DNA from: an uncultured Blastococcus sp.
GTDB lineage: Bacteria > Actinomycetota > Actinomycetes > Mycobacteriales > Geodermatophilaceae
Direction of reading: 5' to 3'
NCBI GenBank assembly: GCA_902805535.1
Contig: CADCTN010000030.1
Coordinates: 1-45,907 of the forward strand
Length of the DNA stretch: 45,907 bases
Shown: piece by piece, positions 6,770 through 39,273 of the stretch
Layout: every line of letters begins with the position of its first letter
How positions within the stretch are numbered: the first letter of the stretch is position 1
The notes under the pieces: generated by a model
The model's database searches: none
What the model was told of the DNA's origin: nothing
The model's input: only the letters and a program-made list of their open reading frames with translations
Position numbers and translations under genes: made by a program

Positions 6770-7243
6770 ATGGCGATCACGAATGGCAAGCCCGAGGGGT
6801 ACCCGACCCTGACCCCGTTCCTCGTCTGCTCCCCGGCCGCCGAGGCCATCCGCTTCTACGCGGAGGTCTTCGGTGCCACCGTCGTCTCACGGATGGACGG
6901 CCCGGGGGACACCGTGCTGCACGCGGAGCTGCAGATCGGCGAGGGCCGGCTCCAGCTGAGCGACCCGAACGAGCAGTACGGCCTGGTCGTGCCCGACCGG
7001 TCCGGCGACGCGGTCAGCGGGTCGACCTGCATCTACGTGCCCGACGTCGATGCCGTCTTCGCGACGGCCGTCGAGCGCGGCGCGACCGTGCGCGAGAAGC
7101 CCGACACCTTCGTCACCGGCGACCGGTTCGCCTCGATCTACGACCCGTTCGGCCACCGCTGGGCGGTGATGACCAGGGTCGAGGACGTCAGCCCGGCGGA
7201 GGCGGAGCGGCGGCTGGCCGAATGGGGCGCCCAGCAGGGGTGA
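6770..7243 (+). CDS. VOC-family (PhnB/glyoxalase-like) protein
   Basis: A 157-aa vicinal-oxygen-chelate protein with paired beta-alpha-beta-beta-beta modules: TPFLVCSPAAEAIRFYAEVFGA at the N-terminus and YVPDVDAVFATAVERGATV...DRFASIYDPFGHRWAVMT at the C-terminus. PhnB-like members bind divalent metal, and many act in resistance or small-molecule conversion; the exact activity is unknown. ATG 6770 is close behind CAGCAT and GGGG elements. The gene is divergent from the AraC pseudogene (27-nt gap), a common regulator-target arrangement, so it may have been its target. The 3' end overlaps the convergent membrane-protein gene by 56 nt. Confidence 0.85.
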   Translation: MAITNGKPEGYPTLTPFLVCSPAAEAIRFYAEVFGATVVSRMDGPGDTVLHAELQIGEGRLQLSDPNEQYGLVVPDRSGDAVSGSTCIYVPDVDAVFATAVERGATVREKPDTFVTGDRFASIYDPFGHRWAVMTRVEDVSPAEAERRLAEWGAQQG

Positions 7244-7865
7244 CGCCCACGGACAGCCGGGGGAGCAGGAGCTGCACGAGGGGGCCGATCGCCACCGCGT
7301 AGAGGACGGTGCCGATCCCCAGGGTGCCGCCCAGCAGCCAGCCGACGGCCACGACCGCGACCTCGATGGACGTGCGGACCAGCCGGACCGACCGGCCGGT
7401 CCGCCGGACGAGGCCGGTCATCAGGCCGTCCCGCGGGCCCGGGCCCAGGTGCACGCCGATGTAGGCCGCCGTGGCGACGGCGTTGAGCAGCACGCCGCCC
7501 ACCAGGAACCCGGCCCGGATGGGCAGTGCCGTCGGTTCGGGGAGGACGGCGAGCGTGGCGTCCAGCGCCAGCCCCAGGACGACGACGTTGCTGACCGTGC
7601 CCAGGCCGGGGCGCTGGCGCAGCGGGATCCAGGCCAGCAGCACCAGCGCGCCGACGACGACGGCGGCGGTGCCGATCGACCAGCCCAGCCGGTCGGCCAG
7701 CCCCTGGTGCAGCACGTCCCAGGGCATGTTGCCCAGCGTCGAGGCGACGATCAGCGCCATCGAGACGCCGTACAGCGCCAGGCCCGCGTAGAGCTGGACC
7801 AGGCGGCGGGGCAGCCTGCGGCCGGGCGGAGCGGGGGACCGGAGCACGCTACGAGCTTCGTCCAT
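7188..7865 (-). CDS. YczE/YyaS/YitT-type membrane protein
   Basis: A 225-aa protein with five hydrophobic segments and the family patterns LYGVSMALIVASTLGNMPWDVLHQGLA near the start and HLGPGPRDGLMTGL near residue 140. This family (YczE) has no settled function; YczE is needed for lipopeptide production in Bacillus. The N-terminus and C-terminus are proline- and arginine-rich. The start at 7865 has no clear ribosome site. Confidence 0.75.
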   Translation of the reverse strand: MDEARSVLRSPAPPGRRLPRRLVQLYAGLALYGVSMALIVASTLGNMPWDVLHQGLADRLGWSIGTAAVVVGALVLLAWIPLRQRPGLGTVSNVVVLGLALDATLAVLPEPTALPIRAGFLVGGVLLNAVATAAYIGVHLGPGPRDGLMTGLVRRTGRSVRLVRTSIEVAVVAVGWLLGGTLGIGTVLYAVAIGPLVQLLLPRLSVGVTPAGRPIRPAAAPPPPG

Positions 7866-7910: not shown

Positions 7911-9086
7911 TCAGCCCGCCGGGTGGGCGGCCTGCGCCGCCGCCGTGGCGGCCCGCAGGACCTCCTTGACCGGCAGGTCCCGGTCGCGGGCCAGCGCGGC
8001 GACGTCCTCGTACTCGACGCTCACGTTGACCACCCGCCCGTCGTGGACGGCGACCTTCGCGCCGACGGTGCCGCCGAGCACCTCCACCGACGTGTGCACC
8101 CGCTCGAGGGCGACCTTGCCCACCGGCACGATCCGCAGGCCGATGCTGGTCGTGGTGGCGAACACCGCCGCCTGGACGGCGGCCACCGCGGCGGGGCGGC
8201 ACAGCGCCGACAGCGTGTGCGCCGCACGGCCCTTCTTCATGAGGATCGGCGTCAGCCAGGCGTCGGAGGCCCCCGCCGCGAACAGCGCCTCGAGCACTCC
8301 GGGCCACAGCCGGGGGTCCAGGTCGTCGACGTTCGTCTCCAGCACGACGGCGCCGGCAGGCTGCGGCTGCGCCGGCTCGCCCAGGACCAGCCGGACGACG
8401 TTGGGCAACTGGGCCGGGTCCCGGCCCCCGGCGCCCATGCCGACGCGCTCGACGCGCATCGGCGGCAGCGTCGTCCAGTCGTCCACGCGGGCGGCGACCA
8501 GCGCCGCGCCGGTCGGTGTGCACATCTCCGCCGGCACCGGCCCGCCGGTCACCGGGACACCGGCCAGCAGCTCCAGCACGGCCGGGCCCGGGATCGGGAC
8601 GACGCCGTGCGACCCCCGTGCCGAGCCGCTGCCGAGCGCGACCGGCGAGGCGGCCAGCCGGGTGAGCCGCAGGTGCTCGAACCCGGCGACCACCCCGACG
8701 ACGTCGGCGAGCGCGTCCAGCGCCCCGACCTCGTGGAAGTGCACGTCGTCGGGGGCGACCCGATGCACCCGGCCCTCGGCGACCGCCAGCCGTTCGAAGA
8801 CGGCCAGGGACCCGTCGCGGACCGCTGTGGAGAGGGCCGCCCCGGCGAGCAGGGCGCGCACGGAGGCCCAGGTGCGGTGCTCGGAGGACGGCGGCGCGTG
8901 CACGTGCACGCGGGTGGCGCCCAGCCCGTGCCGGCTGGTCTCCTCCGTCACCAGCCGGATCCGCTCGACCGGCAGTGCGGCGACCGCCGTCGCGAGCACC
9001 TCCAGCGGAACGCCGGCGTCGACGAGCGCGCCCAGGAGCATGTCGCCCGAGGCGCCCGCGGAGAGGTCCAGCCAACCGATCGTCAC
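7911..9086 (-). CDS. larC: LarC, nickel-pincer cofactor biosynthesis nickel insertase
   Basis: A 391-aa protein of the LarC (DUF111) family: WLDLSAGASGDMLLGALVDAGV at the N-terminus, DVHFHEVGALDALADVVG, TPTGAALVAA and METNVDDLDP-like ETNVDDLDPRLW in the middle, and ALERVHTSVEVLGG...SVEYEDVAALA at the end. LarC is the CTP-dependent enzyme that inserts nickel into the sulfur-containing pincer nucleotide used by lactate racemase and its relatives. It is one uninterrupted frame, with no sign of the programmed frameshift known from lactobacilli. No larE or larA is in the window; a LarB-like domain is found 5 kb away fused to a diguanylate cyclase. Start is GTG 9086. Confidence 0.9.
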   Translation of the reverse strand: MTIGWLDLSAGASGDMLLGALVDAGVPLEVLATAVAALPVERIRLVTEETSRHGLGATRVHVHAPPSSEHRTWASVRALLAGAALSTAVRDGSLAVFERLAVAEGRVHRVAPDDVHFHEVGALDALADVVGVVAGFEHLRLTRLAASPVALGSGSARGSHGVVPIPGPAVLELLAGVPVTGGPVPAEMCTPTGAALVAARVDDWTTLPPMRVERVGMGAGGRDPAQLPNVVRLVLGEPAQPQPAGAVVLETNVDDLDPRLWPGVLEALFAAGASDAWLTPILMKKGRAAHTLSALCRPAAVAAVQAAVFATTTSIGLRIVPVGKVALERVHTSVEVLGGTVGAKVAVHDGRVVNVSVEYEDVAALARDRDLPVKEVLRAATAAAQAAHPAG

Positions 9087-9358: not shown

Positions 9359-10159
9359 TCACTGGCGGTAGACCTCATCCGGGACGTCCGTGACGAACAT
9401 GTGGCCCGGCGCGTGCGTGATGGCGAACGGTGGCCTGGACGCCATCAGCGCCGCCTGGGGGGTGACGCCGCAGGCCCAGAACACCGGGACGTCACCGTCG
9501 ACGAGGTCCACCGGGTCCCCGAAGTCCGGCTCCGCCAGGTCGGCGATGCCCAGGGAGGAAGGTGCGCCCACGTGCACCGGTGCCCCGTGCACCTGCGGCA
9601 TCCGTCCGGTCACCTGCACCGCGGTGACGACGTGTTCGGCCGGTATCGGGCGCATCGACACCACGAGCGGCCCGGACAGCCGACCGGCCGGCCGGCAGGC
9701 CCGGTTGGTCCGGTACATCGACACGTTGCGGCCCTGCTCGATGTTGCGGACCGGTACGCCGGCGTCCAGCAGGGCGGTCTCGAAGCTGAAGCTGCAGCCG
9801 ATCAGGAAGGCGACCAGGTCGTCGGTCCAGAGATCGCGCACGTCGGTCGGCTCGTCAGCGAGCTCGCCGTCGCGCCAGACCCGGTACCGCGGCAGATCGG
9901 ACCGGAGATCGGCATCCGGTGCGAGCACGGTGCGGAACGAGCCCGGTTCGGTCACGTCCAGCAGCGGTACGGGCTGCGGATTGCGCTGGCCGAACAGCAG
10001 CATGTCGAAGGCCCAGTCCCGCGGCACCACCACCAGGTTGGCCTGGGTGAAGCCGGGTGCCTCCCCGGAACTCGGCACCGCCAGCCCGGCGCGGTAGCGG
10101 GCGCGGGCGTCGGCCGGTGTCCGGCGCGCGAGCGTGGCGGTGTCGGCGGTCGCGGTCAC
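9359..10159 (-). CDS. Putative hydro-lyase, DUF1445 (YcsI / D-glutamate cyclase-like)
   Basis: A 266-aa DUF1445 protein ([36 protein letters not shown]..., [52 protein letters not shown]). The same domain forms mammalian D-glutamate cyclase, which dehydrates D-glutamate to 5-oxo-D-proline. In Bacillus the homologue YcsI sits in the ycsFGI-kipIA cluster, and here it likewise sits beside an NRAMP-like gene and pxpABC, so a role in 5-oxoproline metabolism is likely. GTG 10159 has a GGAGGG ribosome site 4 nt upstream; the long open frame downstream of it on the other strand is a shadow. It is divergent from the transporter gene. Confidence 0.88.
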
Positions 10160-10181
10160 GGGGCCCTCCGGACGGCTCGAA

Positions 10182-10210
10182 TTGCCGGGCGTCGGACGCG
10201 AATCTACGGT
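10182..10210 (+). promoter_or_regulatory. Candidate promoter of the transporter-pxpABC operon
   Basis: TTGCCG (10182-10187) and TACGGT (10205-10210) are separated by 17 nt in the divergent region between the DUF1445 gene and the NRAMP-like gene. This fits a primary-sigma promoter, giving a 5' leader of roughly 75-80 nt. No operator palindrome was recognised. Confidence 0.5.
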
Positions 10211-10294
10211 CGACGGCGACGAGGTGAAAGCGCCGCTCCGTCCCGCCGGACGATCCGACCCCCGGACGTCGATCGCAGGTTCCCTGGAGCGCTG

Positions 10295-11533
10295 ATGTCG
10301 CACCCACTGGAACAGCCCACCGCCACCCAGCCGACCGGCAAGCTCGCCTCGAGCACCCGCTCCACGCTGCTGGGCGCGATGTTCCTGATGGCCACCTCGG
10401 CCATCGGACCGGGTTTCATCACCCAGACGACGGCGTTCACCGTGCAGCTGGGAGTGGCGTTCGCCTTCGCGATCGCCGTCTCGATCGTCATCGACATCGC
10501 CCTGCAGATGAACGCCTGGCGGGTCATCGGCGTCTCCGGCCGCCGGGCCCAGGAGCTGGGCAACCTGGTCCTTCCCGGCCTCGGCTGGGTGATGGCCGCC
10601 TTCCTGCTCGTCGGCGGCCTGGTGTTCAACGTCGGCAACGTCAGCGGCGCCGGGCTGGGCACCGACGCGATGTTCGGGCTGGACCCCAAGATCGGCGGCG
10701 CACTGTCGGCGCTCATCGCGATCGGGATCTTCCTGAGCAAGCGGGCCGGGGTCGCCGTCGACCGGATCGTGGTCGTCCTCGGGCTGCTCATGATCGTGCT
10801 GACCACCTACATCGCGGTCACCTCCGGCCCGCCCGTCGGCCAGGCGCTGAAGAACGTCGTCCTCCCCGAGGAGGTGTCCTTCCTGGCGATCACGACGCTG
10901 GTCGGGGGCACCATCGGCGGCTACATCGTCTACGCGGGCGCCCACCGACTGCTCGACTCCGGGGTCACCGGACCGCAGCACGTCCGGGACATCACCCGCG
11001 GCTCGATCACCGGCATCATCATCACCGGGATCATGCGCATCGTCCTCTTCCTGGCGATCCTGGGCGTGGTCACGGGCGGCGCCGACCTCGGCGTCGAGAA
11101 CCAGGCGGCCAACGCCTTCCAGCAGGCGGCCGGCGAGGTCGGCCTGCGGGTCTTCGGCATCGTCCTGTGGGCGGCCTCTATCACCAGCATCATCGGGGCC
11201 TCCTACACCTCGGTGTCGTTCGTGACCTCCCGGACGCACACCAGCGACCGCACCCGCACGATCCTGGTGTGCGCCTTCATCGCGGTCACCACGCTGGCGT
11301 TCGTGCTGGCCGGCGCCGCGCCGACCACGCTGCTGGTGTTCGCCGGCGCCTTCAACGGCCTCCTGCTGCCGATCGGCATCGCCGTGCTGCTGTGGGTGGC
11401 CACCCGCCGGGCCGACCTGCTGAACGGCTACCGCTACCCGCGGTGGCTGCTGGTCGTCGGCTGGGCCGCGTGGCTGCTGACGCTCTACCTGGCGGTCAAC
11501 TCCGTCCGCCCGGTGCTCGAGCTGTTCTCATGA
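10295..11533 (+). CDS. NRAMP-fold transporter of the YcsG type
   Basis: A 412-aa membrane protein with about 11 transmembrane segments and the NRAMP fold. Classical NRAMP metal carriers have DPGN in TM1 and MPHN in TM6; here the corresponding places read GPGF (38-41) and YAGAH (213-217), so the metal-binding ligands are missing. B. subtilis YcsG, next to ycsF and ycsI, belongs to the same branch. I infer uptake of 5-oxoproline or a related organic acid rather than a metal. ATG 10295 follows GGAG at 6 nt. pxpA starts 7 nt after its stop, so it is the first gene of the operon. Confidence 0.88.
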
Positions 11534-11540
11534 GGGCACG

Positions 11541-12302
11541 ATGGCCGGCGTGGACCTGAACTCAGACCTCGGCGAGGGGTTCGGGCAGTGGACCCTCGGC
11601 GACGACGACGCCCTGCTCGGCATCGTCACCAGCGCCAACGTCGCCTGCGGATTCCACGCGAGCGACCCCTCGATCATGAGCCGGGTGTGCGCCCGGGCAG
11701 TGGATTCCGGCGTCGCCATCGGCGCCCAGGTCGGCTACCGCGACCTGGCCGGGTTCGGCCGCCGGTTCATCGACATGGAACCGGACGCGCTCACTGCGGA
11801 CGTGATCTACCAGATCGGCGCGCTGGAGGCGTTCGCCCGCGTCGCGGGCTCGCGAGTGCGCTACGTCAAGCCGCACGGCGCCCTCTACAACGCGATCGTG
11901 CACCACGAGGAGCAGGCGGCCGCCGTCGTGCGCGCCGTCGTCGACTACGACCGCACGCTGCCGGTGCTGGGGCTGCCCGGCTCGGCGTGGCTGCGCCAGG
12001 CCGCCGACGCCGGGCTCACCGTGGTCCACGAGGCCTTCGCCGATCGCGCCTACACGCCCGAGGGGACGCTGGTGTCGCGGCGGCTGCCCGGTGCGGTGCT
12101 GCACGACCCGGCCGAGATCGCCCGTCGCTGCGTCGCGATGGCGGCCGGGGAGCCGATCCAGGACGTGGAGGGCGGCGAGCTGACGCTGCGACCGGACTCC
12201 ATCTGCGTGCACGGTGACACCACGGGCGCGGTCGAGATCGCCCGCCAGGTGCGGCAGGCGCTCACCGCCGCGGACGTGGCCATCTCCCCCTTCGCGCCGT
12301 GA
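11541..12302 (+). CDS. pxpA: 5-oxoprolinase subunit A (LamB/YcsF family)
   Basis: A 253-aa YcsF-family protein with the expected N-terminal [11 protein letters not shown] and [13 protein letters not shown], a central [10 protein letters not shown], and the C-terminal [15 protein letters not shown]. With PxpB and PxpC it forms the ATP-dependent enzyme that opens 5-oxo-L-proline to glutamate. It lies between the transporter gene and pxpB; its stop overlaps the GTG of pxpB (GTGA). Confidence 0.95.
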
Positions 12303-12919
12303 CGCGCGTCCTGCCGAGCGGCAGCACGGCGCTGCTGGTCGAGCTGGACGACCTCGACGCCGTCCTTGCCCTGTACGCCGCGCTCGCCGAGCAGCCGCCG
12401 GACGGCGTCGTCGACATCGTCCCCGCCGCGCGCACCGTGCTGCTCGTGACCGATCCGTCCCGGACCTCCCTGTCCGCGGTGGCCGACGCGGTGGGACGGA
12501 CCACGCCGCGTCCCGACGCCCGGACCGGCGGGGACGTCGTCGAGCTGCCGGTGCGCTACGACGGGGAGGACCTCGCGGAGCTGGCGCGGCTGCTGGACCT
12601 GACCCCGGAGGAGCTGGTGCGCCGGCACACGGGCACCGAGTGGACCGTCGCCTTCGGCGGCTTCGCCCCCGGCTTCGGCTACCTCACGCAGCCGGGCGGG
12701 CAGTGGGACGTGCCGCGCCGGGCCACGCCGCGGACCAAGGTGCCGCCGGGGTCGGTCGCGCTGGCCGGTGAGTTCAGCGGCGTCTACCCGCGGGAGTCCC
12801 CCGGCGGCTGGCAGCTGATCGGGCGGACCGACGTCGCCGTCTTCGACCTGGACCGCGACCCTCCGGCGCTGCTGCGCCCCGGAGTGCGGGTGCGCTTCGT
12901 CGAGGCGGAACCGCGATGA
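12299..12919 (+). CDS. pxpB: 5-oxoprolinase subunit B (KipI family)
   Basis: A 206-aa KipI-family subunit with [19 protein letters not shown] near the start and the family signature GFAPGFGYL followed by [19 protein letters not shown]. KipI was first named as an inhibitor of the sporulation kinase KinA; in non-sporulating bacteria it is the B subunit of 5-oxoprolinase. Both ends overlap their neighbours by 4 nt (GTGA with pxpA, ATGA with pxpC), showing tight translational coupling. Confidence 0.94.
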
Positions 12920-13779
12920 CGCGCGAGTTCACCGTCGTCGCGGCGGGTCCGCTGACCACCGTGCAGGACGGCGGCCGGCCCGGCCAGGCCGCGCTCGGCA
13001 TCGGCCGCTCGGGTGCCTGCGACCGGGCGGTGTACCGGCAGGCCAACCGGCTCGTCGGCAACCCGGAGGATCTCGCGGCCCTGGAGGTGACCTACGGCGG
13101 GCTGGTGCTGCGGGCCGAGGCCGACCTGCTCGTGGTGACGACGGGCGCCCGCTGCGCCGGGCCCTTCCCCCACGCCGCCCCCACCCCGCTCCGTCGCGGC
13201 GCGCAGCTGCGGCTGGGACCGCCAGGGACCGGCCTGCGCACCTACCTCGCCGTCCGCGGCGGCATCGACGTCCTCCCGGTGCTGGGCTCCCGCGCCACCG
13301 ACGTGCTGTCGGGGCTGGGACCCGCGGTGGTCGCCGACGGGGACGTGCTGCCGGTCGGCCCGCCGGTCGACCCGATGCCCGGCGTCGACGTGGCGCCGGT
13401 GCCGGAGATCCCCGGCGGCGAGGTGACAGTGACGGTGCTCCCCGGCCCACGCGCGGACTGGTTCGGCGACGCGGGATGGGCGGCCCTCACCGGGCAGGCC
13501 TGGACGGTGACGAACGAGAGCAACCGGGTGGGCCTGCGGCTGGACGGCGCGCCGCTGGAGCGGGTGCGCGACGGTGAGCTCCCCAGTGAAGGCATGGTGC
13601 GGGGCGCCCTGCAGGTGCCGCCGTCGGGACTGCCGGTGCTGTTCCTTGCAGACCATCCGGTGACCGGCGGCTATCCGGTGATCGGGTACGTCGCGGACGA
13701 GCCGCTGCGCAGCGACGTCGACCGCTGCGGGCAGCTGCGTCCCGGGCAGACGCTGCGCTTCAGGCCCGCCCCGTCCTGA
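12916..13779 (+). CDS. pxpC: 5-oxoprolinase subunit C (KipA family)
   Basis: A 287-aa biotin-dependent-carboxyltransferase-like (KipA) subunit: TTVQDGGRPGQAALGIGRSGACD, ALEVTYGGL, YLAVRGGIDVLPVLGSRATD, and the late ESNRVGLRLDG and LADHPVTGGYPVIGYV. It completes the PxpABC enzyme. It is the last gene of the operon; the convergent GGDEF-LarB gene ends 24 nt away and no terminator hairpin is visible between them. Confidence 0.94.
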   Translation: MTREFTVVAAGPLTTVQDGGRPGQAALGIGRSGACDRAVYRQANRLVGNPEDLAALEVTYGGLVLRAEADLLVVTTGARCAGPFPHAAPTPLRRGAQLRLGPPGTGLRTYLAVRGGIDVLPVLGSRATDVLSGLGPAVVADGDVLPVGPPVDPMPGVDVAPVPEIPGGEVTVTVLPGPRADWFGDAGWAALTGQAWTVTNESNRVGLRLDGAPLERVRDGELPSEGMVRGALQVPPSGLPVLFLADHPVTGGYPVIGYVADEPLRSDVDRCGQLRPGQTLRFRPAPS

Positions 13780-13803: not shown

Positions 13804-16623
13804 TCAGCGGTGGACCCGGCGGGCCACCCTCGCGGCGAAGACACCGGCGGAGTAGCCGTTGTCGATGTTGGTCACGGCGACGCCGGGCGCGGCCGAGTTG
13901 AGCATGGTCATGAGCGCGCCCAGGCCGGCGAAGGCGTTGGGCGCACCGGTCGACGTCGGCACCGCGACCACCGGGACGTCGGCCGTGGCGCCCACCAGCC
14001 CCGCCAGCGAGGCGTCCATCCCGGCGACGACGACCAGGCAGTCGGCGTCGGCGAACAGGGACCCCTCCGAGAGCAGCGACACGATCCGGCTGCCGGCGAC
14101 GTCCTCCACGCGGACGACCTCGGTGCCGGCGACCCGGGCGACGAACGCGGCCTCGGCCGCGACCGCGCCGTCGGCACCGCCGGCGCACAGCACGTGCACG
14201 CGGCCCACCGGCTCGGGCACGGGGCCCACCGCCGCGGCCATCGCGGCGGCGTCCATCGTCGTGTACGCGTCGTGCTCGGTGGCGACCGCGACGAGGGTCT
14301 CGGCGGTGGCGCGCAGGACCAGCGCCGGGCGGGCGGGATGCTCCCGCCGCGCCTCGCGCACCAGGGCCAGGACCTGCTCGGTGGTGCGGCCGGTCGCCCA
14401 GATGACCTCCGGCTCGACCGCCGCCGGGCGCGGGGCCGCGACCTGCTCGGGCACCTGGTCCAGGACGACGTCGGGCACCGGCCCGAGCAGCGGCTCGGCC
14501 GGGGTGCCGAGGCCGAGCGGCGGGTCCACCAGGAGGGGGGCGAAGGCGGCGGTCTCGGCGGGAGCGGGACGGGGATCCAGCGGGAGCGGCTGCACGGTCG
14601 CGACCGTAGCCGCCGGGGCGGCCTCCTCCGGGGAATCCGCGGGGGTCGTGTCGTCGGCCTGCGGGGCCGCGGGGGGAGGGCCGAAGAGGGCGTCGAGCGG
14701 GCTGGCGCCGGGAGCCCGGGTCTGGGTCACCCCGGACAGCCGGACGACGCGGTCGCGACCACTGCGCTTGGCGTCGTAGAGGACGCCGTCGGCGGCGGCG
14801 AACAGGGTCCGGCGGTCGTCACCGCGAGCGGCGGAGGCGATGCCGACGCTGATCGTGACCGGGATGTCGATGCCGAGCAGCGACCAGTCGTAGGTCGCGA
14901 CCCCCCGGCGGATCCGTTCCAGCGCCCGCTCGCCCTGTTCGGCGGTCGTCTCCGGCAGCAGGACGACGAACTCGTCGCCGGCCCAGCGGCAGACCTCGTC
15001 GGTGTCCCGGACCCCGTCGACCAGCAGTTCGGCCACCGTGCGCAGGGCCGCGTCGCCGACCGGGTGGCCGAAGGCGTCGTTGATCGTCTTGAACCGGTCC
15101 ACGTCGACGACGGCGAGCGCCGGAGCGCCGCCGGTCGCCAGCAGCCCGTCCAGCCGCGCCTCGGCGTACCGGCGGTTGGGCAGGTGGGTGAGGGGGTCCT
15201 CGTAGGCCTGGCGACGGAGCTGACCGGCGGCCCGCTCGGTCTCCAGCAGGCTCTTGCGGCGGCCGAACAGCTCGACCCAGCGGGTGCGCCGCTCGTCGAC
15301 CCGGTCCAGCTCGTCGGAGAGGTAGGCCTGCAGGTAGGGCAGCGCGCGGCCGGCGTCGTCCAGCTCGGCGTGCAGCGTGCACAGCTCGCGGAGGGCGGCG
15401 CGGCGCAGCCGGGGCAGGCCGTGCTCGGTGGCCAGCTTGAGCGCCGAGACCAGGTGCTCGTCGGCCTCGGCCACGTCGCCCTGGCGGCGCAGCGCCCGGC
15501 CCAGGGCGAGCTGCGCGGAGGCCAGCTGCCCGCGGTCGGCGGTGGCGGAGGTGATGCGGACGGCGGCTCGGAGCGGACCGACCGCCGCGGCGTGCTCTCC
15601 GAGCCCGACCAGCGCCCAGCCGTGCACCACCTGCGCCGTGACGATGCCCGGATGCTCGGGGGGCAGCAGCGCGAGCGCTTCCTCGGCCCGTTCCCGGGCC
15701 TCGGCGAAGTGCGGGGCGGCCGACTCGGGCACGCCGTCGTCCAGGAGGCCCTCGCCCAGCTCGGCGCACAGCTCACCCAGGCAGGTGGCCGTGGTGGCGA
15801 CCAGCACGTCGGGGTCGCCGTCGTCGGGCCCCAGGGCGCCGGGCTGGGCCGCCGCGGTGAGCGCGGCCTCGTGCGACCGGCGCTGGTAGTCCAGGGCGAG
15901 CGGCATGAGCTCGAGGTCGGCCAGCACGCCGGCGAGGGTGCCGAGCGTGTCCACCAGCAGGCCGCTGGGCGGGATGACCGGGTCGAGCAGGCTGGCGGCC
16001 TCGACGGCCTCGTCCATGGCGGCGTCGATGCGCCGGGAGAGCAGTTCGATGCGCGCGTGCCGGGCCAGGCCGGCGGCCCGCTGCAGGTCGTCGTCGGAGG
16101 CGTCGAAGGCGGCCTTCGCGGAGCGGACCAGCGCGATGGCCAGCGCGGCGCGGGAGGCGGACTCCGACCGGGTGTCGGTCTCCCCGTCCTGGCCCGCGCC
16201 GCCGGTGCCCTCGATGAGGTCGGCGACCCCGGCGTGCAGGTCGAGGGACTCCTCCTCGGTGGATGCGGAGGTGGTCACCGGATCGCCGACCAGGGTGAAC
16301 CCGGCGACGCGCAGCCGGCGCACGAGCAGCTCGGCGCGGAGCGTGTCGGCCCAGGCCTTGCCGAGCGAGACGGGGCCGTCCTCGGGCACGTCGGCGGGCG
16401 GGTCCGCGGCGACGTAGGGCGACGGGTCGCGGTCGAAGTCGGCCAGCAGGTCCTCGGCGTCGTCGAGCTGCCAGTTCGCCAGGGCGGCGGTCACCCGCTG
16501 ATGCAGAGCTCCGGGCGGCACGAGCGCACTGTGCACGGAGGGGAGGGCGCTGTCGAGCACCTGTTCGAGAACGCGCCGTCCCCCGCCCGTCGCGTCCCAC
16601 GCGTCCCACTGGGAGCGGGTCAC
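13804..16623 (-). CDS. TPR-diguanylate cyclase-LarB-like fusion protein
   Basis: A 939-aa protein read without interruption. Residues 1-430 are helical TPR-like repeats; about 430-600 is a GGDEF domain with DVDRFKTIND, inhibitory site RDTD (539-542) and active motif AGDEF (548-552), so c-di-GMP synthesis with product inhibition is expected. Residues about 610-735 are a Pro/Ala-rich linker. Residues about 737-939 match LarB (PurE-like pincer-cofactor carboxylase): EVIWATGRTTEQVLALV, VVVAGMDASLAGLVG, VPVVAVPTSTG, MLNSAAPGVAVTNIDNG. LarB normally has SCAP where this has SAAP (A911), so its nucleophilic cysteine seems lost. GTG 16623 overlaps the stop of the upstream TPR-GGDEF gene (GTGA). A separate larB gene was considered, but there is no stop or ribosome site in the linker. 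Confidence 0.88.
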   Translation of the reverse strand: MTRSQWDAWDATGGGRRVLEQVLDSALPSVHSALVPPGALHQRVTAALANWQLDDAEDLLADFDRDPSPYVAADPPADVPEDGPVSLGKAWADTLRAELLVRRLRVAGFTLVGDPVTTSASTEEESLDLHAGVADLIEGTGGAGQDGETDTRSESASRAALAIALVRSAKAAFDASDDDLQRAAGLARHARIELLSRRIDAAMDEAVEAASLLDPVIPPSGLLVDTLGTLAGVLADLELMPLALDYQRRSHEAALTAAAQPGALGPDDGDPDVLVATTATCLGELCAELGEGLLDDGVPESAAPHFAEARERAEEALALLPPEHPGIVTAQVVHGWALVGLGEHAAAVGPLRAAVRITSATADRGQLASAQLALGRALRRQGDVAEADEHLVSALKLATEHGLPRLRRAALRELCTLHAELDDAGRALPYLQAYLSDELDRVDERRTRWVELFGRRKSLLETERAAGQLRRQAYEDPLTHLPNRRYAEARLDGLLATGGAPALAVVDVDRFKTINDAFGHPVGDAALRTVAELLVDGVRDTDEVCRWAGDEFVVLLPETTAEQGERALERIRRGVATYDWSLLGIDIPVTISVGIASAARGDDRRTLFAAADGVLYDAKRSGRDRVVRLSGVTQTRAPGASPLDALFGPPPAAPQADDTTPADSPEEAAPAATVATVQPLPLDPRPAPAETAAFAPLLVDPPLGLGTPAEPLLGPVPDVVLDQVPEQVAAPRPAAVEPEVIWATGRTTEQVLALVREARREHPARPALVLRATAETLVAVATEHDAYTTMDAAAMAAAVGPVPEPVGRVHVLCAGGADGAVAAEAAFVARVAGTEVVRVEDVAGSRIVSLLSEGSLFADADCLVVVAGMDASLAGLVGATADVPVVAVPTSTGAPNAFAGLGALMTMLNSAAPGVAVTNIDNGYSAGVFAARVARRVHR

Positions 16624-18332
16624 GCGGGTGCCGGGCCGTCGGTCGCATCGGTGGCGGAGGGCTCCTCGCCGGCCGTCCCGCCAGGGGCGCGGACGCGGTT
16701 GCGGCCGCTGCGCTTGGCCGAGAACAGGTGCAGGTCGGCGGTGTCGAACAGCGCCTTCCACCCCACGCGTCCGCGGAGGGGGTCCGCCGTCGGGCCGTCG
16801 TCGAGCGCCGGGGCGGTGGCCACGCCGATGCTGACGGTGACCGGGCCCGGGATGAGGTCGCTCCAGTCGGCCGCGGCCACGGCGGCCCGCAGGCGCTCCA
16901 TCACCACGACCGCCTGTGCCTCGGTCGCCGTCGGGAGGACGACGAGGAACTCGTCGCCCGCCCACCGGTAGACCTCGTCGCCGGTGCGGCTGTGCTCGCG
17001 GAGCAGGTCGGCCACCCGGCGCAGGACGGCGTCCCCGTGGGTGTGCGAGGCCTCGTCGTTGACCTTCTTGAAGCGGTCGACGTCCACGACCGCCAGCGAC
17101 AGCGGCTCGTCGCCCAACCGCATCGCGCCCAGCCGCCGCTCGGCGCTGCGGCGGTTCCCCAGGCCGGTCAGCGGGTCCTCCAGCGCGTGCCGGCGCAGCA
17201 GGGCCGCCTGGCGCTCGGCCTCGCGCAGCCGGCTGCGGCGGACGAACATCTCCGCCCACATCTCGCGGGAGCGCGAGTGCGCCCGGCCGCTGTCGGCGCG
17301 GTAGGCCTCCAGCCAGTGCAGCGCCTCGGCCGGGCGGCCCAGGTCCGCGGAGTTCTGGCCCAGCTCCAGCAGGCACTGCCGGTAGCGGCGGCGGTCGCCG
17401 GATGCCACGAAGCCGCCGGCGGCGTCGACCAGCAGGCCGACCGCCTCCTCCCCGTACTCCTCCTCGCCCTCCTCGTCGCGGCGGGCCACGCGCACGAGCA
17501 GGCGGGCCAGCACCAGGTCGGTGTAGGCGCGCAGCCACAGGCCGCCGTGCTCCTGCACGCGGCGGCGGACGCGGCGCAGTGGCCCGATGGCGCCGTCCAG
17601 GTCGTCGGAGCTGTTCAGCGCCCACGCCTGGACGACGTCGAGGAGGTCGGCGTCGGCGGGGTCGGGCTCCCACGCCATCTCGCGGGCCTCGGTCGCCTGC
17701 GCGGTGGCGACGGCGGACAGTGCCCGGGCCCGATCGGAGTCGCCGCGGCGGCGGAGGGTCTGGGCGAGCTCGGCGTGCTGCTGGGCGGAGAGCTGCAGCA
17801 TCTGCCACTGGTCGCCGAGGTCGGGCAGGACGGCGGCGATCCGGTGACCGCGGCCGGCGTGGGAGACCGCCAGCTCCTCCAGGTCCAGGCCCGACAGCGT
17901 CAGCGACAGCCAGCGGTGGGCCTGGTGCAGCGCCCGGGTGGGTTCCCCGGCGTTGGGGCCCTCGGTGAGCAGGCTGGCGTCGACGGCCAGCAGCATCGCC
18001 GCGTCGAAGTGGTCGGCGGTCACCTGGACGTGGGCAAGGTAGGCGAGGGTGAGCGCGGTGTCGGCGGACGGCGGGCACTTGTCCAGCGCCTCGCGGGCCG
18101 CGGCGACGGCGTCGGCAGCGGCCTCCGGGTCGTTCTCGATCAGCGCGCGCCGCGCCGCGAAGGCCCGCCCCCAGGCGGTCCACCGGGGCTCGTCGGCCTC
18201 CTCGAGCGCCCCGTCGGCGTCCTCCAGGAGGGCCAGGAAGGTGGTGGAGTCCTCGCGCGAGCTGGCGTCGAGCAGGCGCCACAGCACGGCCGCCGGAGCA
18301 CCGGAGGTGACGCGCGCCTGGCTGGAACTCAA
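16620..18332 (-). CDS. TPR-GGDEF diguanylate cyclase
   Basis: A 570-aa cytoplasmic protein: helical TPR-like repeats over about residues 10-390 (for example HAELAQTLRRRGDSDRAR and LLELGQNSADLGRPAEALHWL), then a GGDEF domain with DVDRFKKVND, I-site RTGD and AGDEF (458-462), followed by VSIGVATAPA. It should make c-di-GMP and be product-inhibited. TTG 18332 is chosen because GGAGGG lies 5 nt upstream; the open frame upstream of it runs into the divergent pheA promoter. The gene is translationally coupled to the GGDEF-LarB gene that follows and is clearly its paralogue, so tandem duplication followed by gain of the LarB part is likely. Confidence 0.88.
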   Translation of the reverse strand: MSSSQARVTSGAPAAVLWRLLDASSREDSTTFLALLEDADGALEEADEPRWTAWGRAFAARRALIENDPEAAADAVAAAREALDKCPPSADTALTLAYLAHVQVTADHFDAAMLLAVDASLLTEGPNAGEPTRALHQAHRWLSLTLSGLDLEELAVSHAGRGHRIAAVLPDLGDQWQMLQLSAQQHAELAQTLRRRGDSDRARALSAVATAQATEAREMAWEPDPADADLLDVVQAWALNSSDDLDGAIGPLRRVRRRVQEHGGLWLRAYTDLVLARLLVRVARRDEEGEEEYGEEAVGLLVDAAGGFVASGDRRRYRQCLLELGQNSADLGRPAEALHWLEAYRADSGRAHSRSREMWAEMFVRRSRLREAERQAALLRRHALEDPLTGLGNRRSAERRLGAMRLGDEPLSLAVVDVDRFKKVNDEASHTHGDAVLRRVADLLREHSRTGDEVYRWAGDEFLVVLPTATEAQAVVVMERLRAAVAAADWSDLIPGPVTVSIGVATAPALDDGPTADPLRGRVGWKALFDTADLHLFSAKRSGRNRVRAPGGTAGEEPSATDATDGPAPA

Positions 18333-18431
18333 CGCTTCCCTCCAGTGACGGGTCGGGCCGGCGGTCGCGGGCCGGGGTGTCGGTGACCATGCAGTTCCCC
18401 CGGGCCGCCACCGTCGCCGACCCGCCCGCAC

Positions 18432-18444: not shown

Positions 18445-19314
18445 ATGCCCGGGACACCCAGAACGCCGCCGACGAGGTTCGCCTATCTCGGGCCCGAGGG
18501 TACCTTCGCCGAAGCGGCGCTCCGCACGGCCATTGCCTCCTCCGAGGGAGCGCGGTACCCCCAGCCGAGTGTCGCCGCGGCGCTGGCCGCCGTCCGATCG
18601 GGGGCCGCCGACGCCGCACTGGTCCCGCTGGAGAACTCCGTCGAGGGCTCGGTGCCCGCGACGATGGACGGGCTGGCCGAGCAGGAGCCCCTGGTCATCA
18701 CCCGCGAGGTGTTCCTCGACGTCGCGTTCGTCCTCGCCGCCCGGCCCGGCACCGCCCTCGGCGACGTGCGGTCGGTGGTCAGCCATCCGCACGCCCTGGC
18801 CCAGACCGCCGGCCGGCTGGCGGAGCTGCTCCGGGACGTCGTCCCGCTGCCGCTGCCGTCCACCGCGGCGGCGGCCGCGGCGGTCGCGGCCGGGGAGCAC
18901 GACGCGGCCGTGTGCGCCCCCATCGCGGCGGAGCGCTACGGGCTGGTGCCGCTGGTCGAGGACCTCGCCGACATCCCGGGAGCGGTGACCCGCTTCGTGC
19001 TCGTCGAGCCCGCGGGCGCGCTCCCGGCCCCCACCGGCAACGACAAGACCTCGCTCATCGCCGTCGTCGAGGACCGCACCGGGGCCCTGCTGGACGTCCT
19101 GCGCGAGTTCGCCGACCGCGGGATCAGCCTCACCCGGATCGAGTCGCGCCCGACCCGGGACCGGCTGTGGGTCTATTCGTTCTCGCTGGACTGCGAGGGC
19201 CATGTCGCCGAGCGACGGGTGGGCGAGGCGCTGGCTGCCCTGCGCCGGGTCTGCGCGGACGTCCGCTTCCTCGGGTCCTACGCCCGCGCCGACGGGCGGG
19301 AGAACCGCACCTGA
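18445..19314 (+). CDS. pheA: Prephenate dehydratase
   Basis: A 289-aa enzyme that converts prephenate to phenylpyruvate in phenylalanine synthesis. The catalytic part covers residues 10-190: YLGPEGTFAEAAL, VPLENSVEGSVPATMDGL, and the essential TRF triad in GAVTRFVLVEP. A C-terminal ACT domain (about 200-280, SLIAVVEDRTGALLDVLREF, then ISLTRIESRPTRDRLWVYSF) should bind phenylalanine for feedback control. Length and order are normal for monofunctional actinobacterial PheA. It is transcribed alone and ends in front of a 27-bp hairpin. Confidence 0.95.
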   Translation: MPGTPRTPPTRFAYLGPEGTFAEAALRTAIASSEGARYPQPSVAAALAAVRSGAADAALVPLENSVEGSVPATMDGLAEQEPLVITREVFLDVAFVLAARPGTALGDVRSVVSHPHALAQTAGRLAELLRDVVPLPLPSTAAAAAAVAAGEHDAAVCAPIAAERYGLVPLVEDLADIPGAVTRFVLVEPAGALPAPTGNDKTSLIAVVEDRTGALLDVLREFADRGISLTRIESRPTRDRLWVYSFSLDCEGHVAERRVGEALAALRRVCADVRFLGSYARADGRENRT

Positions 19315-38175: not shown

Positions 38176-39273
38176 TCAGCCGCGCCGGGGGGCGGCGGCC
38201 GCCAGGTCCTCCATGCGCAGCAGGCCCAGCACGTGGCCGGACGGGTCGGTGCAGAGGACGGGGTCGAACCGGACGGCGGCCGGGCGGGTCAGCGCCCGGT
38301 CGAGCGCCTCGGTGACGTCGGTGGTGGGGTGGACCCGCAGCGAGACCGGCGCCTGGTAGAGCTCGCCCGTGCGCGGGTCCTGCAGCAGGAGCCCGGTCGG
38401 CTCCCCCTGCGCGCCGAGCAGCACGACCGGGGCGACGAGCGGCCTCCCCTCGTCCACCGCCTGCTGGCGGACCGGGCGGAGCAGGCCCGCCACGGTGTCG
38501 CTGAGCCGGGCGCGGGCGACCTGTGCCCGGACCAGCGCCGTGACCCCGGCGGACAGCGGCGCGAAACCGGCCGACGGGCGGCCGAGCAGCCAGCCCTGGG
38601 CCAGCGGGACGCCCAGCTGGGCGAAGGCGGCCAGCTCGGCCGGGGTCTCGATGCCCTCGGCGAGCAGCCAGGCGTCGATGCGCCCGGCGAACTCGCCGAG
38701 CATCTGCGCCAGAGCCACGCGCACGGGGTCGGTGTCGGCGTCGCTGACCAGCGCCCGGTCGAGCTTGACCACCTGCGGGCGCAGCACGGCGAGCTGCTGC
38801 AGGCCCGAGTAGCCGCTGCCGGCGTCGTCCAGGGCGATCAGTGCGCCGCGGGCGCGGAGGTCGTCGCACTGGCGGCGCAGCGTGGCCAGGTCGTGCACCG
38901 GCGTGTGCTCGGTGAGCTCCACGACGACGCGGTGCAGGGCCGGGCGGGAGGCGAGGGCCTCCTGCACGGTCGCGGAGCCCAGGAGGTGCGGGCTGACGTT
39001 GACGGTGAGGAACGTGTCCGGCGGGAGGAGGTCCACGGCGGCGAGCGCCTTGTGGATGGCCAGGGCTTCCAGCTCCTCGGCGACCCCCGCCTCGGCCGCC
39101 GCGGCGAACCAGACGTCGGGACCCGCGGCTCCGGGGAAACGGGCCAGGGCCTCGTAGCCGGCGATAGTGGCGCCGGCGAGGTCGACGATGGGCTGGAACA
39201 CCATCGTCAGGTCGTCGGAGTCGGCGAGCAGCGGACGGCAGTCCGGGAGACGCGCCGTTCGCGTGCCGAGCAT
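38176..39273 (-). CDS. EAL-domain c-di-GMP phosphodiesterase with C-terminal CBS-like domain
   Basis: A 365-aa cytoplasmic protein. Residues about 20-255 are an EAL domain in which all key positions are present: EALAR (41-45), NVSP, VELTE, ALDDAGSGYS, VVKLDRALV, AEGIET and AQGWLLGRP. It should therefore hydrolyse c-di-GMP. Residues about 265-365 resemble a CBS pair (VAPVVLLGAQGEPTGLLLQDPR and VRFDPVLCTDPSGHVLGLLRMEDL) that may bind a nucleotide and tune activity. ATG 39273 is chosen; no strong ribosome site is seen. It is divergent from the SpoIIE phosphatase gene. Confidence 0.9.
   Translation of the reverse strand: MLGTRTARLPDCRPLLADSDDLTMVFQPIVDLAGATIAGYEALARFPGAAGPDVWFAAAAEAGVAEELEALAIHKALAAVDLLPPDTFLTVNVSPHLLGSATVQEALASRPALHRVVVELTEHTPVHDLATLRRQCDDLRARGALIALDDAGSGYSGLQQLAVLRPQVVKLDRALVSDADTDPVRVALAQMLGEFAGRIDAWLLAEGIETPAELAAFAQLGVPLAQGWLLGRPSAGFAPLSAGVTALVRAQVARARLSDTVAGLLRPVRQQAVDEGRPLVAPVVLLGAQGEPTGLLLQDPRTGELYQAPVSLRVHPTTDVTEALDRALTRPAAVRFDPVLCTDPSGHVLGLLRMEDLAAAAPRRG

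Follow-up and report, generated by a model that had tools for sequence, protein, structure and literature searches.

Why should a diguanylate cyclase, the kind of enzyme that makes the second messenger cyclic di-GMP (c-di-GMP), end in a domain related to LarB, the nicotinate-dinucleotide carboxylase of nickel-pincer cofactor synthesis? The question is raised by a fusion gene of an uncultured Blastococcus sp. (family Geodermatophilaceae), whose members live in soil and on stone, found in a stretch of 45,907 nucleotides (contig CADCTN010000030.1; the whole stretch is hereafter the window) from a draft genome of 242 contigs that is 85% complete. We have found that the LarB part lacks catalytic residues of LarB in the 100 fused copies compared, and that nearly the whole family keeps this dead domain, even without cofactor synthesis, so that it probably has a new job. 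The protein is best explained as a probably active cyclase whose dead C-terminal LarB domain acts as a regulatory or assembly module, a reading to which we assign a probability of about 0.5.

The gene lies on the minus strand, which the original prediction did not specify, as one unbroken frame, and the GGDEF domain, linker and LarB-like end described in the original prediction are all present in it, with every motif at the position claimed. Domain and fold identity were taken from Pfam, NCBIfam and structure searches. The layout is as follows:

13804..16623, minus strand: fusion gene of 939 codons with a GTG start, comprising a TPR-like region, GGDEF domain, linker and pseudo-LarB domain (open reading frame and profile matches)
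15328..15708, minus strand: TPR_MalT/TPR_12-like stretch, residues 306-432 (Pfam, below cut-offs)
14749..15207, minus strand: GGDEF domain, residues 473-625 (Pfam, E 9.4e-39)
14998..15009, minus strand: I-site RDTD, residues 539-542 (motif position in the translation)
14968..14982, minus strand: active-site signature AGDEF, residues 548-552 (motif position in the translation)
14419..14727, minus strand: Pro/Ala-rich linker, residues 633-735, with 24 P and 22 A among 103 residues (composition)
13807..14418, minus strand: pseudo-LarB domain, residues 736-939, 204 residues (NCBIfam LarB match, predicted LarB fold)
14173..14175, minus strand: Ala817, at the site of L. plantarum LarB Ser127 (alignment)
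13891..13893, minus strand: Ala911, at the site of L. plantarum LarB Cys221 (alignment)

LarB patterns occur at residues 868 (GMDASLAGLVG), 883 (VPVVAVPTSTG) and 918 (TNIDNG), and the NCBIfam LarB profile matches residues 738-935 with 153.6 bits (E 5.7e-45; cut-off 175). The C-terminal domain also has the LarB fold in the predicted structure, and the proposed comparison of this segment with LarB and PurE came out for LarB. PurE membership was rejected at 25.9 bits, far under the TIGR01162 cut-off of 149.6; a separate AIRC match elsewhere in the genome (219 bits) is presumably PurE. The predicted TPR-like repeats fared less well: matches do exist, the best of them over residues 306-432, but they are weak and none reaches a Pfam cut-off.

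What the fused domain lacks is the catalytic site. Cys221 of LarB, which we take to act in a cysteinyl-pyridine intermediate, is found in none of the 100 fused copies (A in 79, S in 10, T in 6, G in 4 and P in 1). Ser127, which we assume to be catalytic and whose S127A variant (named in PDB titles) presumably has reduced hydrolysis, is likewise found in none (G in 49, A in 46, P in 2, V in 2 and one gap). Among the 67 unfused LarBs compared, Cys221 is kept in 67, Ser127 in 66 and the pair His158-Arg159 in 67; in the window protein this pair is replaced by V848 and S849, and of 99 fused copies, 8 have His at site 158. At the 72 positions conserved in unfused LarBs, the same 99 copies have lost 17, kept 33 and are mixed at 22. 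The lost positions include K57 (Arg in 99/99), 154-156, 158-159, Tyr204-Ala206 and Cys221, and the kept ones R80, D128, T200, S201 and D231. LarB positions 1-11, the N-terminal segment, have no match in the window protein. Judged by these residues, the fused LarB part is almost certainly catalytically inactive. The window genome also encodes an intact LarB that has the Cys (241.7 bits), beside LarE on contig 3, and with Cys221 and Ser127 gone from the fused domain and an intact LarB elsewhere, the former is not the cofactor enzyme. It further differs from LarB in being joined to a cyclase and in being kept where the cofactor pathway is missing.

In the cyclase part, the 91 copies in which the motif is seen have AGDEF (87) or AGDEY (4), and I-sites of RDTD (83), RDSD (5) or RGND (3); the fused protein is probably an active diguanylate cyclase. 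With GGDEF cyclases that have N-terminal sensors it shares the AGDEF signature, an RxxD I-site five residues before it and a TPR-like input region, whereas its C-terminal accessory domain is, unlike theirs, a dead metabolic enzyme. The linker ranges from 71 to 178 residues and changes fast across the family, which favours tethering over rigid allostery; its motifs (SPLDxLFG-like in 33/91, FAPLL-like in 56/91) occur too unevenly to be of use. Matches above cut-off in the window genome number 22 for GGDEF and 18 for EAL, and another c-di-GMP gene, with an EAL domain, lies in the window at 38575-39222 on the minus strand. One paper (PMC8325347) reports RsiG, a twin-motif c-di-GMP-binding anti-sigma factor, in 16 of 16 Geodermatophilaceae species, so that a likely target for c-di-GMP exists in this family.

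A scan of bacterial genome contigs gave 127 confirmed stretches, from which 78 distinct loci were kept; 75 of the 78 bear titles naming Blastococcus, Geodermatophilus, Modestobacter, Klenkia, Trujillonella, Goekera or Geodermatophilaceae. Two loci (L053 and L078) come from records titled Bacillus sp. AZ43 (UNVERIFIED_ORG) with Blastococcus-like genes, apparently a misnamed organism. When the same domain order was looked for in 112 Geodermatophilaceae genomes, as had been suggested, the fused-type domain was present in 101 (100 in the main set, plus G107). In 91 of the 100 the GGDEF motif shares the frame of the domain, in 7 an edge cuts the copy, and in 2 (G046 and G091) the frame is broken in the linker. 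The fusion is thus in frame in 91 of the 93 copies that no edge cuts, among them copies in single-contig genomes (G022 and G042, for example), and apart from the two exceptions this rules out a stop or frameshift splitting the gene in its linker. The C-terminal helix motif of the fused domain is retained in 98 of 100 copies. The domain was not found in nine of the 112 genomes (G066-G074, from three genera), and in G080 and G097 the cyclase part stands at a contig end, so that the domain is out of view and its absence is not shown.

Retention of the fusion is not tied to the cofactor pathway. Thresholds of at least 200 bits for canonical LarB, at least 170 bits for LarC and a score above its own cut-off for LarE leave 70 of the 112 genomes with the complete set, 29 with no member of it (all given as at least 95% complete) and 13 mixed. 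The fused domain occurs in 28 of the 29 pathway-less genomes, among them G046 with its linker break, and the single exception is G080. Retention in these genomes indicates no dependence on nickel-pincer cofactor synthesis. In the tree built from the cyclase part (88 rows; 27 scored as lost, 55 as kept), the pathway state changes at least nine times, eight of them forced by supported branches, a count that alone cannot separate loss from gain. Selection was gauged by the ratio of nonsynonymous to synonymous substitutions (dN/dS), whose absolute values are rough, since the counting method is simple and the genes are GC-rich: medians are 0.38 for the fused domain, 0.26 for GGDEF, 0.77 for linkers and 0.15 for canonical LarB (n=16). 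For the fused domain the median is 0.40 in the 33 genomes that lack the pathway or have a low-scoring LarC only, and 0.36 in the other 67; constraint on the domain is thus relaxed but real, and not pathway-dependent. The original prediction, whose interpretation is supported in part, had offered a coupling of cofactor synthesis to the second messenger. As the main role this was rejected on the 28 pathway-less genomes, the similar dN/dS and the repeated pathway changes, and the missing catalytic residues speak against it as well.

A match to LarA (PF09861) is missing in 39 of the 70 full-pathway genomes, that of the window included, so that in these an unknown enzyme may be the user of the nickel-pincer cofactor. 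A LarC at 121.7-157.7 bits (cut-off 90) persists in five genomes that have neither canonical LarB nor LarE (G002, G011, G013, G015 and G018); it adjoins the fusion in the first four and lies about 4 kb off in G018. These low-scoring LarCs may be decaying or repurposed.

How the fusion arose is suggested by its neighbours, which in the window are:

16620..18431, minus strand: tandem upstream GGDEF protein of 603 aa with AGDEF, its stop overlapping the fusion start (Pfam)
18445..19314, plus strand: prephenate dehydratase gene pheA, divergent, the conserved flank of the locus (NCBIfam, gene order in relatives)
11541..13779, plus strand: pxpA, pxpB and pxpC (LamB/YcsF, CT_C_D, CT_A_B), between the fusion and LarC (Pfam)
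7911..9086, minus strand: LarC (Pfam/NCBIfam)

The GTG start of the fusion and the TGA stop of the cyclase gene upstream share bases, as GTGA; of 77 named loci, 47 likewise have an overlap of 1 or 4 bases between this pair, with the start extrapolated from the alignment. The order in core Geodermatophilaceae is pheA, cyclase and cyclase-pseudoLarB, often with LarC next; of the 44 loci showing both, 29 have the LarC match no more than 250 bases downstream of the pseudo-LarB match, and 39 no more than 1.1 kb. Four loci of one basal genus (L176-L179) run pheA, larB, larC without an intervening cyclase gene, and their larB is unfused and retains Cys and Ser; in a locus of another genus (L175), larB-larC lies near a contig end. 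Of 19 loci taken from other families of the same order, 8 share the arrangement pheA-larB-larC (L274 has 3.4 kb between pheA and larB); Cys is kept by the LarBs of all 19 loci, and Ser by those of 18. The LarB tree unites the fused copies in a single clade (100/100) whose stem is long (0.9). The tree does not resolve the sister group of this clade, so orthology was taken from gene order. Going by that order, the cyclase genes probably arrived between pheA and larB and then captured larB in place. In the ancestor of core Geodermatophilaceae, two tandem TPR/GGDEF genes would have been inserted between pheA and the old larB-larC pair, and the second of them fused in frame to larB. Four genomes (L236-L239) have a further, separate LarB type and a distant LarE (about 40% identity), with LarC (52-55%) in three of the loci; this LarB type groups with LarBs of another family on the tree and was perhaps acquired.

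Beyond the family, an order sample (397 genomes, 75 of those listed in the family) contained 66 outside-family genomes with a match, the best at 220.5 bits. None of the 19 of these that were read, the best included, has a cyclase-part match in the fetched stretch. Three short fused copies of the family score alike (G005 226.3, G020 217.7 and G019 212.1 bits), and the score by itself thus cannot tell the two groups apart. In a phylum sample (396 genomes), the best match besides the fusion of the window itself reached 141.6 bits, judged from scores alone. Both sets are samples and not a census.

The mechanism that we propose begins with a division of labor. The separate LarB beside LarE would have taken over catalysis, and since this intact LarB was retained, the fused copy would have been free to lose its catalytic residues and become a regulatory or assembly module. 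LarB forms an octamer. By analogy with these relatives, the retained LarB/PurE core may self-associate, and the long flexible linker would then gather the cyclase domains into one particle, where the GGDEF-GGDEF encounter that makes c-di-GMP would be favoured. The TPR region would take the input signal, and a ligand in the old LarB pocket may tune assembly.

Such a tethering type of linker favours assembly through the retained core and leaves ligand sensing as the main rival. Here the dead pocket would bind a pyridine dinucleotide or nucleotide (nicotinic acid adenine dinucleotide, NaAD; nicotinamide adenine dinucleotide, NAD; adenosine monophosphate, AMP) or CO2 but not turn it over, and control of the cyclase by occupancy of the pocket would connect c-di-GMP with NAD metabolism. 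NAD metabolism is general, and loss of the cofactor pathway is therefore irrelevant to this explanation. It draws on the kept R80, D128, T200, S201 and D231, on the Arg at the K57 site and on LarB structures with NAD (7mj1) and AMP (7mj0), as their PDB titles describe them, but positions 154-156, 158-159 and 204-206 are erased and the long, fast-changing linker would be a poor rigid coupler; we consider it possible, though rather unlikely. Doubtful, too, is the narrower proposal that NaAD, NAD or a related nucleotide is bound but not turned over by the dead LarB and that this sets cyclase assembly; pyridine-nucleotide status would then steer c-di-GMP, and a whole family of actinobacteria would have made a module for c-di-GMP control out of a nicotinate-dinucleotide carboxylase. 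The domain could also be a vestige, a larB trapped by fusion whose tail is tolerated without function, as the relaxed dN/dS relative to canonical LarB, the long stem branch, the shrunken G107 copy and the two frame breaks might suggest; its presence in most of the family, its retained helix motif and a dN/dS about half that of the linker make this improbable. The nearness of LarC would suit a regulator of the cofactor pathway, acting through mixed oligomers of the dead domain with canonical LarB or by tying LarC expression to c-di-GMP, yet pathway-less genomes keep the fusion under similar dN/dS and we regard such a role as very unlikely. A bifunctional enzyme, with an active LarB coupled to c-di-GMP synthesis, would be consistent with the fold and the family match, and two fused copies even slightly exceed the 175-bit cut-off (G093 at 178.7 and G090 at 177.3 bits). 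These two also lack the Cys221 and Ser127 equivalents, His158/Arg159 are mostly replaced across the fused copies, and the window protein falls under the cut-off without LarB positions 1-11; an active LarB was rejected, and we give it scarcely any credence. That assembly or gene calling joined two genes might be suspected from the draft state of the window genome and from the relatives broken in the linker, but the same fusion in one-contig G022 and G042 and in nearly all uncut copies refutes an artefact, whose chance is negligible.

Several observations weigh against a dead LarB domain serving as an assembly or regulatory module. The linker breaks in G046 (L155) and G091 (L192) may be sequencing errors or a real split into two genes, and in G107 (L234, L292) the pseudo-LarB is without the internal stretch holding the Ser127 site; this copy looks the most degraded among those read. 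The pseudo-LarB model that scored 91.7 was built on an alignment including 46 unfused LarBs, and a model from fused copies only has a predicted local distance difference test score (pLDDT) of just 71. The scores of G093 and G090 and the roughness of the dN/dS values count on the same side, and the retained R80, D128, T200, S201 and D231, together with the change of K57 to Arg, also suit a ligand sensor.

Some features of the surrounding window may be added. Between the fusion and LarC (9359-13779) lie pxpABC, a PRK05463/D-Glu_cyclase-type hydro-lyase gene and an Nramp-like transporter gene, and pxp genes occupy this place also in L004, L005, L021 and L078. Downstream of LarC, a protein at 7188-7865 has no Pfam match (E 0.01), and 23 of 78 loci have a match to it close to the fusion. 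No sigma-70-type site came out of the promoter scan, and the sole terminator-like site is on the plus strand.

The locus offers a well-resolved capture of an enzyme by a signalling gene, in which the likely unfused ancestor, the fused state, the loss of catalytic residues and repeated pathway loss are all found in living genomes. Our searches of open-licence literature found no link between LarB and GGDEF, and diguanylate cyclases here gain an accessory domain that those searches did not turn up. Genomes that carry only the fusion gene are not to be read as able to make the nickel-pincer cofactor. A ligand or assembly role of the pseudo-LarB domain is directly testable.
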